Below, piece after piece: positions 2,872 to 44,449 of a DNA stretch of 64,000 nucleotides. A program made the translations under genes and the position numbers. Each line of letters opens with the position of its first letter. Position 1 is the first letter of the stretch. Source of the stretch: Bifidobacterium primatium (GTDB taxonomy: Bacteria > Actinomycetota > Actinomycetes > Actinomycetales > Bifidobacteriaceae); NCBI RefSeq assembly GCF_002802875.1, contig NZ_PEBI01000001.1, positions 335,830 through 399,829 of the forward strand, read 5' to 3'. Below the pieces are notes generated by a model. The model worked only from the letters and a program-made list of their open reading frames with translations, ran no database searches and was not told where the DNA came from.

Positions 2872-3061
2872 GCAGCATCCGTCGAAAGCCTCCCCCGATG
2901 GATGCTACGGGAACCGTTCCGGCATCCATTATGCAGTCGGCCAGCGTTCGGGCGTAACCGGTGGAACCGGGCGTCACCGAACGTCGGCCGATATTTTTTG
3001 AACGCTGTCGTCGATATCGGCACCATCGATATCGACGCCATCAGCACCGCCACGACCGTCA

Positions 3062-3081
3062 TATAATGTACAAACGTACAT
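3062..3081 (+). promoter_or_regulatory. promoter -10 box overlapped by operator-like palindrome ATGTACAAACGTACAT
   Basis: A perfect -10 box (TATAAT, 3062-3067) is immediately followed by a 16-bp palindrome, ATGTACAAACGTACAT (3066-3081). The palindrome would cover the transcription start of the acetyltransferase gene at 3110, a typical place for a repressor. The same half-site, CGTACA, recurs as TGTACGTTCGTACA at 30733-30746. The rest of the 2872-3109 intergenic stretch holds no gene that I can see, only a repeated ATCGATATCGAC-like segment near 3010-3036. Confidence 0.5.
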
Positions 3082-3109
3082 ATTCATGTGAACCAAAGGA
3101 GATGACGGC

Positions 3110-3766
3110 ATGACGACGAACACATACGACGTGACCGCGGACCTTACGCCGGAGGGACGCATCGAATGGGACCGGATGGTGGCGGGCGAGGTCTATCAGG
3201 ACTCGCATCCGGAGATCGAACGCAAGCGCGCCGAGGCGAAACGACTGTTCGTCGCCTACAACCGCACCGACTACGAGGACGTCGCACGACGTCGCGATGT
3301 CATGGAGCAGCTGTTCGCGGCGGTCGGCGACGACGTGTTCATCGAACCGAACTTCCGTTGCGAGATCGGCCGCAACATCACCATCGGCTCGCACGCCTAC
3401 ATCAACTTCGACTGCGTGATGCTCGACAACGCGCCGATCACCCTGGGCGACTACGTGTGGATCGCGCCGATGGTCGGTCTGTTCGCCACGAACCATGCGC
3501 TCGATTTCGAGGAGCGCAAGGCCGGCGCCTGCCAGGCGAAGCCGATCGTGATCGAGGACGGCGTATGGCTGGGCGGGCATGTGACCGTACTCGGCGGCGT
3601 GACCATCGGACGCGGTTCGGTGATCGGTGCCGGCTCGGTCGTCACCAGAGACATCCCCGCCGGCGTGGTCGCGGTGGGCAATCCGGCGCGCGTAGTCCGG
3701 CCGATCACCGAGGCCGACAGGACCGGGTTCTGCGAGCGCATCGCCGCCCGCGACGCCGGCCGGTAG
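3110..3766 (+). CDS. maltose/galactoside O-acetyltransferase family protein
   Basis: A 218-residue member of the hexapeptide-repeat (left-handed beta helix) acyltransferases of the LacA/Maa type, which move acetyl from acetyl-CoA to a sugar hydroxyl in the cytoplasm. The N-terminal maltose-acetyltransferase helix region (MVAGEVYQDSHPEIERKRAEAK) precedes the repeats. The catalytic histidine lies in FATNHALDFEER. Repeats such as GVTIGRGSVIGAGSVVTRDIP and the closing VAVGNPARVVRPI are clear. AAAGGAG lies 7-13 bases before the ATG at 3110. The gene sits alone behind a strong -10 box and a palindromic operator. Which sugar is acetylated cannot be told from sequence. Confidence 0.85.
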   Translation: MTTNTYDVTADLTPEGRIEWDRMVAGEVYQDSHPEIERKRAEAKRLFVAYNRTDYEDVARRRDVMEQLFAAVGDDVFIEPNFRCEIGRNITIGSHAYINFDCVMLDNAPITLGDYVWIAPMVGLFATNHALDFEERKAGACQAKPIVIEDGVWLGGHVTVLGGVTIGRGSVIGAGSVVTRDIPAGVVAVGNPARVVRPITEADRTGFCERIAARDAGR

Positions 3767-3784
3767 ACGGCATGACGTCCGTCA

Positions 3785-4630
3785 CTACCGGCGTACGGCG
3801 GTGAAGAAGAACCTTGGGAACGGGAAGATGATGCTGCCGTCGGATTGCGTCGAATAGGCCTCGCGCACGCGACCGAAGATCTCGCTTTCGAAGACGGCCC
3901 GTTCGGCGTCGCCGGGCAGCGCCTGCAGGTACGGCCGCAGTCCGGTGCCGCGATACCAGTCCATGATGGCCTCGTGCGACGGCAGGTTGTGCATATAGAC
4001 GACCTTCCATATGCGGAAGTCCGCCACGAGTTCGCCGCCATGCAGCAGTTCCCAGTATTCGGGCGGCGTGAGGTTGTAGAACTCGCGTTGCTGCGGGAGC
4101 CGGTCGGCGTATTGCGGCGAATGCACGACGTCGGCGATGATGCGGTGGATGGGCTCCTCGTAGTTCATCGGCGTCTGCACGGCGAGCATGCCGCCTGGCT
4201 GCAGGAGGCCCAGCATGGCGGGGATGAGCCGCGGATGGTCCGGCACCCATTGGATGCACGCGTTGGAGAACACGACGTCGAAATCGTGCGGCAGGGCGTC
4301 GAAATCCGCCGGATTCGAGGCGTCGAACAGGGCGAAGTCGATGTCGGGATGGGCCTTGCGCGCGGCGTCAATCATCTCCGGGGAATTGTCGACGCCGAGG
4401 ATTTCCGCATGCGGGTAGCGTTCGCGCAACACGGCGGTGCTGTTGCCCGGCCCGCAGCCGATGTCGAGCACGCGACGGACCGTGCCGTCGTCCGGCGGCA
4501 GTTGCGCGGCGAGGTCGCGCGACGGTTGCGTACGTTCCTTCTTGAATCGCAGATACTGTTGCGAGTCCCATTGCACAGTGTTGGTTTTGGTCGCCGATGT
4601 CGACGTGTCTGTCGCGTTCGTCGTGGTCAT
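3785..4630 (-). CDS. tam: trans-aconitate 2-methyltransferase-like SAM-dependent methyltransferase
   Basis: A 281-residue class I methyltransferase. The SAM-binding motif I is VLDIGCGPGNST and motif II reads ILGVDNSPEMID. The Tam-type opening WDSQQYLRFKKERTQPSRDL and the central FSNACIQWVPDH and LQPGGMLAVQTPMN stretches are characteristic of trans-aconitate methyltransferases. Those enzymes methylate trans-aconitate formed by leakage from aconitase. The first 20 residues are a low-complexity Thr/Asn/Ser stretch. It converges with the acetyltransferase gene, leaving only 18 bases between the two stops. The family call is good; the exact substrate is inferred. Confidence 0.82.
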   Translation of the reverse strand: MTTTNATDTSTSATKTNTVQWDSQQYLRFKKERTQPSRDLAAQLPPDDGTVRRVLDIGCGPGNSTAVLRERYPHAEILGVDNSPEMIDAARKAHPDIDFALFDASNPADFDALPHDFDVVFSNACIQWVPDHPRLIPAMLGLLQPGGMLAVQTPMNYEEPIHRIIADVVHSPQYADRLPQQREFYNLTPPEYWELLHGGELVADFRIWKVVYMHNLPSHEAIMDWYRGTGLRPYLQALPGDAERAVFESEIFGRVREAYSTQSDGSIIFPFPRFFFTAVRR

Positions 4631-8265: not shown

Positions 8266-8443
8266 ACTCCCCTCAGTCGGCAAAGCCGACAGCTCCCCTC
8301 GGCCACGAGGGGAGCCAGAAAGAGACGATCACCAATCATGCGGCCTCCCTACCAAGACGAACTCCCCTCAGTCGGCAAAGCCGACAGCTCCCCTCAGCCG
8401 CGAGGGGAGCCAGAGAAAGACGATCACCAATCATGCGGCCTCC
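8266..8443. repeat. 95-bp tandem duplication with GC-rich hairpins inside the fetA-fetB operon
   Basis: Two near-identical units start at 8266 and 8361. Each opens with ACTCCCCTCAGTCGGC and contains a strong hairpin (GCTCCCCTC paired with GAGGGGAGC). Each ends in GATCACCAATCATGCGGCCTCC, which is the last few codons and stop of fetA. The copy next to fetB therefore carries a relic of the fetA 3' end. The hairpins could end or stabilise part of the fetA-fetB transcript. Confidence 0.85.
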
Positions 8444-39686: not shown

Positions 39687-41366
<1,680 letters not shown>

Positions 41367-41378
41367 GGCTTCACCGCC

Positions 41379-41432
41379 CATCGCGGTTCCAATCGTCATC
41401 GCGGTTCCGGTCGTCATCGCGGTTCCGATCGA
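41379..41432. repeat. 18-bp tandem repeat, three copies
   Basis: CATCGCGGTTCCAATCGT and two near-copies follow each other exactly at 41379, 41397 and 41415, just past the ettA stop. A partial fourth CATCGCGATTCC lies near 41454. No function is evident. Confidence 0.7.
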
Positions 41433-41489
41433 CCGTCGTGATGCCAGTGGGCCATCGCGATTCCGAATTCAGCAGCGACGACATCAATG

Positions 41490-41517
41490 CAACGGCTCCC
41501 CTCAGCGGGAGCCGTTG
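41490..41517 (+). terminator. hairpin terminator candidate after ettA
   Basis: The arms CAACGGCTCCC (41490-41500) and GGGAGCCGTTG (41507-41517) form an 11-bp stem with a six-base loop. It is followed by TCAT, not a strong T run. Confidence 0.55.
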
Positions 41518-41650
41518 TCATATGCGCGGCACAAGAAACTCCTCGCCCCCCCTACTCATCCCTTTCACATTCACCTTTCCCTTTCACCTTCACCTCCTCT
41601 CTCATCTTTCCGTCTTCACTTCTTCACTGCTCGACGTTCCCCGCTTGCGC

Positions 41651-41930
41651 GATGGACCGCTCCGCACATTCGCGTTTTCGCAGCGCAGTCCATCGAAAAT
41701 CATCGCTTTCCAATGGATTACGATGCAAAACCAGCATATTGCGACGCAATCCATCGCGACCAAACAATCCACCTCGACAAAACCGCATGATTCCAACGAT
41801 CTTAAAAATCAACCAATTTGATTTCGATGGACCGCTCCGCATATTCGCCAAATCGCGGCGTAATCCATCAGCAACCGGGCATTTCCGATGGATTACGCCG
41901 CAAAACCACCAATATGCGGCGCACTCCATC
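41651..41930. repeat. array of 44-bp GATGGA...TCCATC dyads, 61-bp period (copy A)
   Basis: Four dyads of 44 bases start at 41651, 41712, 41826 and 41887. Each opens with (G/A)ATGGA and closes with TCCATC, and neighbours are 61 bases apart. A 114-base step separates the middle pair. The interior carries GCCGCAnATTCGC-like sequence that is itself partly symmetric. The stretch 41695-41758 is almost identical to 44117-44180 in the second array, and the 114-base linker (CGACAAAACCGCATGATTCC) is shared too. The array is more AT-rich than the flanks, and 61 is not a multiple of three. Confidence 0.8.
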
Positions 41931-41957
41931 ACGAACCATAGCAATTCCCCGAATACC

Positions 41958-42068
41958 ATGGATTCCATGACTTCCCAGGACATCATCACCATTATCATCG
42001 TGATAGTCATCGGTGTCGCCGTGGGAGTCGTCATGCTCGCCGCCGGCATCGTCGCTCTTCGAGAATAA
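41958..42068 (+). CDS. possible small membrane peptide (36 residues)
   Basis: The open frame MDSMTSQDIITIIIVIVIGV continues as a single hydrophobic span and ends IVALRE. It starts where array A stops. No ribosome binding site is convincing before either ATG (41958 or 41967). It could equally be chance, so confidence is low. Confidence 0.3.
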   Translation: MDSMTSQDIITIIIVIVIGVAVGVVMLAAGIVALRE

Positions 42069-42074
42069 CGCCTA

Positions 42075-42239
42075 TTGAACAGCGTCCTTGAATGGCGGCG
42101 GTCCTCTCAACACCCCGACACACACTCGGGCATCCGTATCGCCGAAGCACGGTGGATGGGCTGGGCAAGACGCCCCGACGGCAAGACGCCCGTCTATGCA
42201 TGGCGTGATTTCGACGGATACCACGAACGGAAGGATTAA
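42075..42239 (+). CDS. possible 54-residue protein with TTG start
   Basis: An open frame starting TTG at 42075 encodes a Trp/Arg-rich, well-structured-looking sequence (LEWRRSSQHPDTHSG, IAEARWMGWARRPDGKTPVY, AWRDFDGYHERKD). The composition is more protein-like than chance frames here. There is no clear ribosome binding site. It may be a relic of a longer gene. The following stretch 42240-42788 holds only weak open frames, the best being a 57-residue hydrophobic one at 42404-42577, plus a lone DnaA-box match at 42687. Confidence 0.3.
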   Translation: MNSVLEWRRSSQHPDTHSGIRIAEARWMGWARRPDGKTPVYAWRDFDGYHERKD

Positions 42240-42788
42240 CGTTCCGTTGTCCTCGACCGCAGCTCCGGCCAGCGGAATATCAAACCCCTGATGTGTGGCC
42301 GGAACAGTGCCGTGACCACCGTGCGCATTCCAATCCGACCGGGTGCCGTGCACGAATCGACCGATGCCCCATTATCTGTACAATCAACGATGCCTTGCCG
42401 TCGATGCTCCTCCGCCTCCAAACGTATCCCCACGAACGACTGCATGCCACCGAACTCCACGTTTTCCGCTACCGAACCCCGATTGCCCCGATAATCCTCA
42501 TGGCCGTGGGAGGCGCCTCGACCGCACTGGGGCTTGCCGCCGCCGTGCTTGCCATCATGGCGTGCACGATGCCGTAAGCCCCGGCGTCGTGAATTGCATG
42601 GTTGCGAACCACATCGTCGCCAGCCGCATCGTCGGTCGGATGCATTGGCGCTGTCGCCGGCCCTATCGGCACACTTCACATCACAGTTATCCACATTCCT
42701 CGTTTGGCTTCCGTCGGCGATTGGTTTTCCGTTAGCGTGAATATCACGACGTTTTGCACAGCATTCTTCATCAAGGGGGCCGAAGACC

Positions 42789-43766
42789 ATGCGATACCCG
42801 AACCATCCACGACAGACCAACGACTCGGACCGGCACACCGGCCATCGGAATCATTCCCATCCCGTCAACGACAATGCACAAGACATCAGTACCATGAGCA
42901 AAACGCTGGCGACCAAACGGCAGAGCACCCTGCAACGATGCATCGAGGAGACGAGGAACGGCAAGCGGAAAATATTGTTTGGATTGACGACCGCTCTCGA
43001 ATTGCAGATGGTACCAGTTCCCGAACAGTGCCGGCTCGACACCGATCGGCTGCATTCCGTGGCCAGCACGCGTGGACGCCGAATGAGCTCGAAGACCATG
43101 GCCTCACACGTCTGGACCGAATTCGACGGACCGTCGCAAATCCGTCTGTCTCCGTCCATATATGTGCTCGACCTGGTGCATACATGGGCCCAGATGGCAC
43201 GGTTCGTCGACCTAGAACAGTTCATCGCACTCACCGACGCCGTTATATTCCGCATGATGATGGATGGTAAGCGAGATCCCCTGCAACGCATGAGCGAATT
43301 TCTTGAACAATCGTCATCGTTTGCCGGAAAACTGTTCTGCCGCATGGCATTGCGGCTTGCTCAGGAGAACGTATATTCCCCACAGGAGACGATATGCCGT
43401 CTTGCGTTGGTCTGCCACGGCGTCCCCTGCCCCGAAACGAATTACGTCGTGCCGGGGCTGACGTTCCGGTCGGGAGCGGCGATGACCGTGGACATGGCAT
43501 GGCCGGAGGCTCGCGTGGCGGTGGAATACGACGGCGACCATCATCGTACGGACAAGCGGCAATGGCGACGCGACCAGGAAAAACGCGAACTGCTGCGACT
43601 GCACGGATGGATTGTGCTCGTCGTGACCGCGGATGCGTTGAAGGATGCCGAATCCCGAGCGTATTTCGCCTTTCAGGTGTCGAGACTGCTGATTTCGCGA
43701 GACGTCCGCGTGGATTTCCTCATCGAGGCGCGCCCCCTGGAGAAGATGTGCCGCCTGCCGCGGTGA
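42789..43766 (+). CDS. DUF559/Vsr-like endonuclease-domain protein
   Basis: A 325-residue protein. The C-terminal domain has the DUF559 pattern of the very-short-patch-repair endonuclease fold: VDMAWPEARVAVEYDGDHHR, then a basic DKRQWRRDQEKRELLRLHGW and IVLVVTADAL. The acidic pair and the E-Y-D-G-D-H-H core are intact. The N-terminal 200 residues resemble the AbiEi-like helical region often found before this domain in actinobacteria (ATKRQSTLQRCIEETRNG, then SPSIYVLDLV). AAGGGGG precedes the ATG at 42789. It stands alone between two copies of a palindromic array. Whether it acts in defence or repair is open. Confidence 0.7.
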   Translation: MRYPNHPRQTNDSDRHTGHRNHSHPVNDNAQDISTMSKTLATKRQSTLQRCIEETRNGKRKILFGLTTALELQMVPVPEQCRLDTDRLHSVASTRGRRMSSKTMASHVWTEFDGPSQIRLSPSIYVLDLVHTWAQMARFVDLEQFIALTDAVIFRMMMDGKRDPLQRMSEFLEQSSSFAGKLFCRMALRLAQENVYSPQETICRLALVCHGVPCPETNYVVPGLTFRSGAAMTVDMAWPEARVAVEYDGDHHRTDKRQWRRDQEKRELLRLHGWIVLVVTADALKDAESRAYFAFQVSRLLISRDVRVDFLIEARPLEKMCRLPR

Positions 43767-43835
43767 TTCCGCGGATTGCGACACATATAGGCTTGTCGGA
43801 TGATGCCGAATATTGGATGCCGGATGTCAGATGCC

Positions 43836-44200
43836 AATGGTCTCTTATCCATGGCGCTCCTATCCATGGCGTAATCCAGGTTGCACAAGGTCGTCCGATG
43901 GATTGCAGCGCAAAATCGTCAAAATGCGGCATAGTCCATCGAAAATCGACTCTTTCCGATGGACTACACCGCAAAATCGGCGATTATGCAACGCAGTCCA
44001 TCGCAGCCAGACAATCCTCCCCGACAAAACCGCATGATTCCAACGGTCTCGAAAATCGACCGTCTCGATTTCGATGGATTGCATTGCATATTCGCCAAAA
44101 CGCAGCGCAGTCCATCGAAAATCATCGCTTTCCAATGGATTACGATGCAAAACCGGCATATTGCGACGCAATCCATCGCAGGCCATCATGTTTCGATGGG
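43836..44200. repeat. array of 44-bp GATGGA...TCCATC dyads, 61-bp period (copy B)
   Basis: Dyads start at 43897, 43958, 44073 and 44134, with a half unit (GATGGG) at 44195 and a degenerate unit at 43836. Steps are 61, 61, 115, 61 and 61 bases. This is the same pattern as copy A, 2.2 kb away. The long step contains the shared CGACAAAACCGCATGATTCC segment. Two short CTTATCCATGGCG-like direct repeats occur near 43845-43871. The rest of 43767-44449 shows no gene. Confidence 0.8.
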
Positions 44201-44449
44201 CCACACCGCGAATTGCCAATACCCCCGACATGTGAGCGCGCACCCGTCGTTTCATCGTCGACGCATCTGCGTTCCGTTCGGCAACACCGTCATCTTGCGT
44301 TCACCTAGCTCACGAACTTGTTACAAAACGGTCCTCTTTTTCTTTACGAGTCGTGGATAGACTGCATTGCAGAATGCAAAACGACGCCGGCGCTTCGACG
44401 CTGCAGACGCCAACGACCACTGCATGACAACACGACAAGCGAGGAATTC

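Follow-up and report, generated by a model that had tools for sequence, protein, structure and literature searches.

The window analysed here is a stretch of 64,000 nucleotides from Bifidobacterium primatium (contig NZ_PEBI01000001.1, positions 335,830 to 399,829 of the forward strand), in which the gene of a likely Vsr-fold nuclease (42789..43766, + strand, 325 aa) lies between two arrays of regularly spaced palindromic dyads. The relation between the nuclease and arrays of this kind is the subject of this work. Array A (41651..41930, no strand assigned) consists of four dyads at 41651-41694, 41712-41755, 41826-41869 and 41887-41930, placed at steps of 61, 114 and 61 bp. Array B (43897..44177, likewise without a strand) starts 131 bp 3′ of the nuclease stop and has its four dyads at 43897-43940, 43958-44002, 44073-44116 and 44134-44177, with steps of 61, 115 and 61 bp. 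The dyads are 44 bp long, with a single one of 45 nt (43958-44002), the spacers measure 17 bp, and each array has one central gap of 70 bp. This gap holds the core AACCGCATGATTCCAACG, on the + strand in both arrays (41781..41798 in A and 44028..44045 in B). The half-sites of array A follow the consensus GATGGAYTRCGNYGCR and alternate in orientation. The aligned dyads begin with GATGGA or CATGGA and carry no GTAG tag at either end. An earlier note on this DNA had described two phased arrays with one longer step of 114 or 115, and both the coordinates and the steps are borne out.

The two arrays share a tract, 41695..41758 (+), matching 44117-44180, in which 62 of the 64 positions are identical, as the same note had observed. 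Such near-identity of sequence suggests a recent exchange between arrays A and B, and it fits the note's proposal that the arrays have a recent common origin or exchange sequence. Over their full length the arrays are 71% alike, below the similarity of each to its counterpart in the sister species B. saimiriisciurei (73% and 79%, respectively), and the exchange would therefore have been local.

The same element occurs repeatedly in the rest of the genome (G000 in the comparisons, where G-numbers denote the genomes and L-numbers the loci or regions compared). With up to one mismatch, the half-site pattern gives 64 forward and 66 reverse matches in this genome, and the reversed control gives 6 and 0, which places the dyads above chance. 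From among the matches listed, 16 regions were taken, of which L021 had no dyad and the other 15 had two or more. The genome holds at least 18 arrays and at least 70 dyads, the window included. In the 18 arrays compiled, which were grouped by hand out of a scored scan and hold 70 dyads, the number of dyads per array ranges from two to seven, and the step is 60-62 or 113-115 bp in 52 of 52 cases. The arrays are located between genes or at gene ends, with neighbouring genes in any orientation, according to an open reading frame heuristic which draws frames over some arrays too. Hundreds of random, unphased sites with no link to the nuclease, named in the earlier note as the pattern that speaks against a cassette, are not what was found. 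The distribution of steps extends beyond this genome. Across three arm families (own genome; G007; and G026, G031 and G088 pooled), the steps form 12 size classes, which cluster around multiples of 10.6 bp (R 0.81 and, with the choice of period allowed for, P 0.0012). Such phasing would be expected of dimers or multimers bound on one face of double-stranded DNA. The degenerate positions (Y, R) vary independently between the two arms of a dyad, and the arms are best described as independent, protein-type half-sites.

A core near AACCGCATGATTCCAACG sits centrally in most of the compiled arrays. With up to two mismatches it is found at 20 sites of the own genome, some of them outside arrays, and at none in the reversed control. 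Of 189 family genomes, 19 have its exact form, with one degenerate base; they belong to 2 of 16 genera. Queried with the own-genome core, ten central gaps from arrays of other lineages reach 3e-4 as their combined P, with four of the ten individually below 0.05; a second query, chosen after looking, gave 2e-5 over seven gaps, and for an earlier 13-nt query one of 12 gaps fell below 0.05. The arrays of G007, G026, G031 and G088 lack a clear core. On these sequence comparisons the core is claimed for the window's genus only, and a universal core is not upheld; in the central gap it may bind a further factor. The sole exact core found in G007 is a perfect copy upstream of dnaA, among TTATCCACA boxes (L052, G007:C6, 12564-12581 of the contig). 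As for a role as an origin element, none of the G000 core matches read, at up to two mismatches, was shown to lie upstream of dnaA. A polar replication element, similar to the FtsK-orienting polar sequences (KOPS), Ter or chi, was considered and weakly rejected, as the orientation of the core is mixed along single contigs. Five genomes (L044, L050, L053, L057, L060) share a conserved core-like sequence, AACCGCTTGATTTCAACG, at the start of one gene, which we take to be cysS-like; the sequence is apparently unrelated to the arrays.

The product of the gene between arrays A and B is likely an MTES_1575/DUF559-like nuclease of the Vsr fold. By sequence the match is weak: the profiles of MTES_1575 (E 3.2e-5) and DUF559 (E 0.0015) are both matched below their Pfam gathering scores, with 24.4 vs 38.2 and 18.8 vs 20.6 bits. 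By predicted fold it is clear, with a C-terminal Vsr/I-Bth0305I-like domain in which acidic and basic residues of catalytic type are conserved. The residues D235, E246, D248, D250, H252, D262 and K265 are invariant among 20 aligned homologues, all 20 of which match the MTES_1575 profile at E <= 0.1. The DUF559/Vsr-like nuclease that the earlier note had seen between the arrays stands, and its frame of 325 aa is open. The true start may be the internal ATG at 42894, since the conservation among homologues begins near it. For the N-terminal half, the fold matches are of middling quality and include Rv2827c and MenT1, which are kin of the AbiEi/MenA-MenT toxin-antitoxin world. A search of PDB sequences with the profile of the nuclease family returned 0 matches, and no PADLOC model is matched by the nuclease.

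The association of the nuclease with arrays was assessed on homologues picked on nuclease score alone, with a uniform test that requires at least three similar dyads within 800 bp at a shuffle p <= 0.01. In clade A (34 loci after the removal of six duplicates, L093-L098), the 3′ flank is positive at 16 loci, or 15 without the minisatellite at L102, the 5′ flank at five, and at least one flank at 19. Among the paralogues, at 30-37% identity, the 3′ flank is positive at 3 of 20 loci and the 5′ flank at 0 of 20; 800-bp segments taken elsewhere in these regions, which served as the control, are positive in 3 of 128 cases. For the clade-A 3′ flank this corresponds to Fisher p values of 2.9e-10 against the control, 0.021 against the paralogues and 0.008 against the 5′ side (1.9e-9, 0.038 and 0.015 without L102), all of them too small, since loci from related species do not count as independent. 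The test is strict and misses visible arrays at L073; its false or doubtful positives are L102, the 5′ flank of L099 (a coding repeat) and the 5′ flank of L088. A looser detector (at least three dyads; 32/40 clade-A and 9/20 paralogue loci) was dropped, because it counted six loci twice and let GC-rich noise pass. The arms beside the homologues differ widely and include TGGCAGRGAA (G007), GGTCACGSGATGG (G026, G031, which is B. biavatii, and G088), GCACGCGATGG (G056), TGCCGCTCAACG (G038), GGGACAACATG (G036) and GGTACGCAACG (G093), among others. The association between nuclease and array is well supported by this comparison of sequences, and the link proposed earlier for the window is upheld by other clade-A nucleases, which often adjoin arrays of their own arm type. 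Dyad arrays were also seen 3′ of distant DUF559-type paralogues, 34-36% identical, at L111 (~3476-3940) and L128 (~2880-3410), and the association may extend beyond clade A.

The type of the arm is related to the lineage of the nuclease. The window's genus has two nuclease lineages, with a mutual identity of 42-49%. Within 1.3 kb of the nucleases of lineage I (window, G005, G004) there are 17-19 half-sites of the GATGGA type and none of the other. The nucleases of lineage II (G005, G004, G006, G007) have 4-11 half-sites of the TGGCASRGAA type and 0-4 loose GATGGA-type matches, the four at L090 being scattered, one-mismatch ones. Both lineages are present in G004 and in G005 (B. saimiriisciurei), where each nuclease lies amid its own arm type. 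The nuclease of G002 is 62% identical to the window's, yet its arms are AAGGACGAA; the core is retained. Exact dyads of the type neighbouring the nuclease occur genome-wide 32 times in G007, 29 in G026, 28 in G031, 6 in G056 and 63 in G088, with 0 in the reversed control. At least six CACGSGATGG dyads are found in 6 of the 189 genomes (G026, G031, G056, G058, G068 and G088), each of which has a clade-A nuclease. For 25 loci whose arms were read by eye, arm similarity follows nuclease identity overall (Mantel r 0.51, P 0.0001). A still different arm type, TGTGATATTCCGGCGGA, forms near-perfect dyads at steps of 61-64 bp in an array at L106 (437-672, G058:C29), 3.3 kb from a clade-A nuclease.

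The history of the locus can be traced in the gap between its flanking genes, one EttA-like and one for an acyl-CoA thioesterase (tesB). In G001, G007 and G008, three genomes of the same genus, nuclease and arrays are both missing from the ettA-tesB gap; the alignment ends at 41364-41367 and resumes at 44284-44288, leaving an extent of ~41368..44283 (no strand) that is missing from them. G006 has an array ahead of tesB, with no nuclease there. Another example is L014 (1400-5560; G000:C1:632.9-637.1 kb), where the gene of a 771-aa KAP ATPase with a match to the profile of PifA-like proteins, a defence family, lies between two arrays that are nearly identical and point the same way. The counterpart in B. 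saimiriisciurei (L136) has one array and no KAP ATPase gene. Among 19 further regions of the own genome, 13 (one of them partly) align with array regions of B. saimiriisciurei, which indicates that the majority of arrays are old and have stayed where they were; that comparison covered the regions around known cores, so that non-matches are uninformative. The mobile cassette suggested in the earlier note is consequently upheld in part: the gap empty in three relatives and the cargo absent from the sister species are in its favour, and the 13 of 19 regions shared with that species are against it. Several other repeats and frames were seen around the locus: an 18-bp tandem repeat right behind the ettA-like gene (window 41379-41431), a 95-bp tandem repeat close to the window start (8266-8443), a pair of short frames in the interval from array A to the nuclease, both hydrophobic at the C-terminus (41961-42068 and 42293-42577), for which no convincing relatives were found at L001, L072 and L073, and, in G004, a 14-bp minisatellite (CGTCAAATCAGCGA) between array and nuclease (L072, 1306-1487).

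On balance, we lean towards a partnership of the nuclease with its cognate palindromes, a two-part system which works like the repetitive extragenic palindromes (REPs) and the REP-associated tyrosine transposases (RAYTs), with an unrelated enzyme. In such a system the nuclease, alone or as part of a complex, would recognise the arms as double-stranded half-sites and assemble on a single face of the DNA helix over the length of the array. It would nick or cut at or near its own arrays, and the breaks would be repaired from other arrays by recombination. The repair would homogenise the arms within a genome and occasionally duplicate an array with an adjoining gene. This mechanism would explain the concerted arm type, the local exchange of tracts, the varying number of dyads and the array-bounded cargo. 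The fuller proposal is put forward tentatively, as a possibility and not as an expectation: a new partnership, found in bifidobacteria as far as examined, in which a Vsr-fold nuclease recognises helically phased palindrome arrays, re-invents its target in each lineage, and maintains or spreads the arrays by cutting and recombination, and in which cargo, for instance a PifA-like defence gene, can travel between duplicated arrays. No report of such arrays, or of their link to a DUF559/Vsr-like nuclease, was found in the open-licence literature. If the nuclease does recognise the arms, palindrome families driven by an enzyme arose at least twice, from unrelated enzymes. Bifidobacteria would then supply a large natural set of nuclease-target pairs with altered DNA specificity. 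The re-specification of Vsr-type targets could be tested directly with small proteins and short DNA, and so could an old problem, the copying and upkeep of interspersed palindromes.

Several observations weigh against this partnership. The 3′ test fails at 18 of the 34 clade-A loci, and 15 of the 34 are negative on both flanks. Three of the 20 paralogue loci are positive, of which L111 and L128 look real and L123 is GC-rich and doubtful. Among pairs of less than 50% identity the Mantel signal is gone (r 0.00). G058 has 47 CACGSGATGG dyads, and beside its two clade-A nucleases the arrays seen are either missing or of a different type; G068 has eight such dyads, none near its best nuclease, and G097 has one and no nuclease match. 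Orphan arrays occur as well, with lineage II arrays in G000, which has no lineage II nuclease, and GATGGA arrays in G006, which has no nuclease of lineage I; G004, which does carry a lineage II nuclease, shows 0 exact dyads of that lineage's type. The predicted N-terminal half, with its middling fold matches only, includes no obvious DNA-binding domain. Orphan arrays, nucleases without arrays and the positions shared with the sister species also argue, from the sequences, against recent mobility.

Among the other explanations, transcription of the arrays as a structured RNA is the least credible. The dyads can be drawn as hairpins and some arms are near-perfect palindromes, and the earlier note had read in the arms a partial covariation that hinted at selection for pairing. 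That reading is not sustained: over the 70 own-genome dyads the complementarity within a dyad is 0.609 against 0.589 in within-array shuffles, of which 430 of 5000 reach the observed value. Only 18 of 5000 do so when arms are shuffled globally, which we read as a sign that arms are more alike inside one array than across arrays. On the core strand, G-U pairs (75) are not in excess over A-C mismatches (112), and in 41400-44400 no Rfam family scores above its gathering threshold, with three chance microRNA matches far below. An RNA element was rejected on these grounds, and of the three options in the earlier note (mobile or nuclease-targeted cassette, structured RNA, DNA-binding array) the last is the best supported. 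It is also very improbable that the arrays are miniature transposons which some unrelated transposase has spread. The dispersed intergenic copies and the cargo between duplicated arrays at L014 are consistent with this. Against it stand the variation of the number of dyads per array, target duplications that are not established, and the Y1 (RAYT/IS200) transposase PF01797, which is absent from the own genome and from 8 of 9 genomes of the genus, other transposase families not having been searched. PF01797 is present in G003, where neither the core nor a GATGGA dyad was found.

A more serious competitor, although still an unlikely one, is that the arrays are sites of a host protein which organises the chromosome or regulates genes, and that the nuclease gene is a passenger settled beside them. 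Intergenic arrays that are old and shared in position by two species agree with this, any cooperative DNA-binding protein would fit the helical phasing and the independent half-sites, and the perfect core upstream of dnaA in G007 points the same way. With such a host factor there is no reason to expect a separate arm type for every nuclease lineage, even inside one genome, nor the enrichment of arrays on the 3′ side, and arms that differ wholly between related species are unusual for a conserved host factor. The dyads might instead be operators by which the nuclease regulates itself, the dispersed arrays titrating the nuclease or marking self DNA, whereby an intracellular defence nuclease would leave the chromosome alone. 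This is doubtful, since the arrays lie mostly 3′ of the gene, away from the promoter, the nuclease has no PADLOC match, and nucleases without a detected array occur as well as orphan arrays. In its favour are the array adjoining the nuclease gene, the fold matches of the N-terminal half to Rv2827c and MenT1, and the PifA-like KAP ATPase enclosed by another array pair.

The preferred reading, a nuclease with its cognate palindromes, can be set beside several known systems. A period of 61 bp resembles that of type I-E arrays of clustered regularly interspaced short palindromic repeats (CRISPR). The arrays described here are not composed of near-identical direct repeats with unique spacers: the units differ within an array (60-79% identical in ungapped repeat families), the dyads alternate in orientation and there are no unique spacers; no cas genes were seen beside the arrays, although no search was aimed at them. 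The homing endonuclease I-Bth0305I differs in that here there is no intron or intein, and the arms are multi-copy and outside the gene. With the MTES_1575/DUF559/Vsr-like superfamily the nuclease shares its predicted fold and catalytic-type residues, and it is a putative DNA-cleaving enzyme. The founder of MTES_1575 is, in the available part of its description, a large HEPN fusion protein (PMC3710099); the window protein differs from it in the N-terminal half and scores below the curated cut-offs. The open-licence literature yielded no report of MTES_1575/DUF559-type nucleases beside repeat arrays.

The closest resemblance is to REP/RAYT. In the available portions of two accounts (PMC2817692, PMC8049555), the RAYT gene is a single-copy, vertically inherited one flanked by cognate palindromes, and these are also dispersed in the genome, differ between lineages and can group into clusters in which they alternate at regular spacing. 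REPs are tagged with GTAG (or CGTC). The present system is not filed under REP/RAYT, because the Y1 transposase is absent from the genome and the arms have no GTAG tag. Its enzyme is a Vsr-fold nuclease in place of a Y1 (HUH) tyrosine transposase, its dyads are double-stranded sites of 43-45 bp with helically quantised steps and a core common to the genus, and its copy number is lower. What it has in common with REPs, with their clusters known as bacterial interspersed mosaic elements (BIMEs), and with RAYTs is the arrangement itself, in which cognate palindromes flank the gene of an enzyme, here a different one, and are dispersed in the genome.
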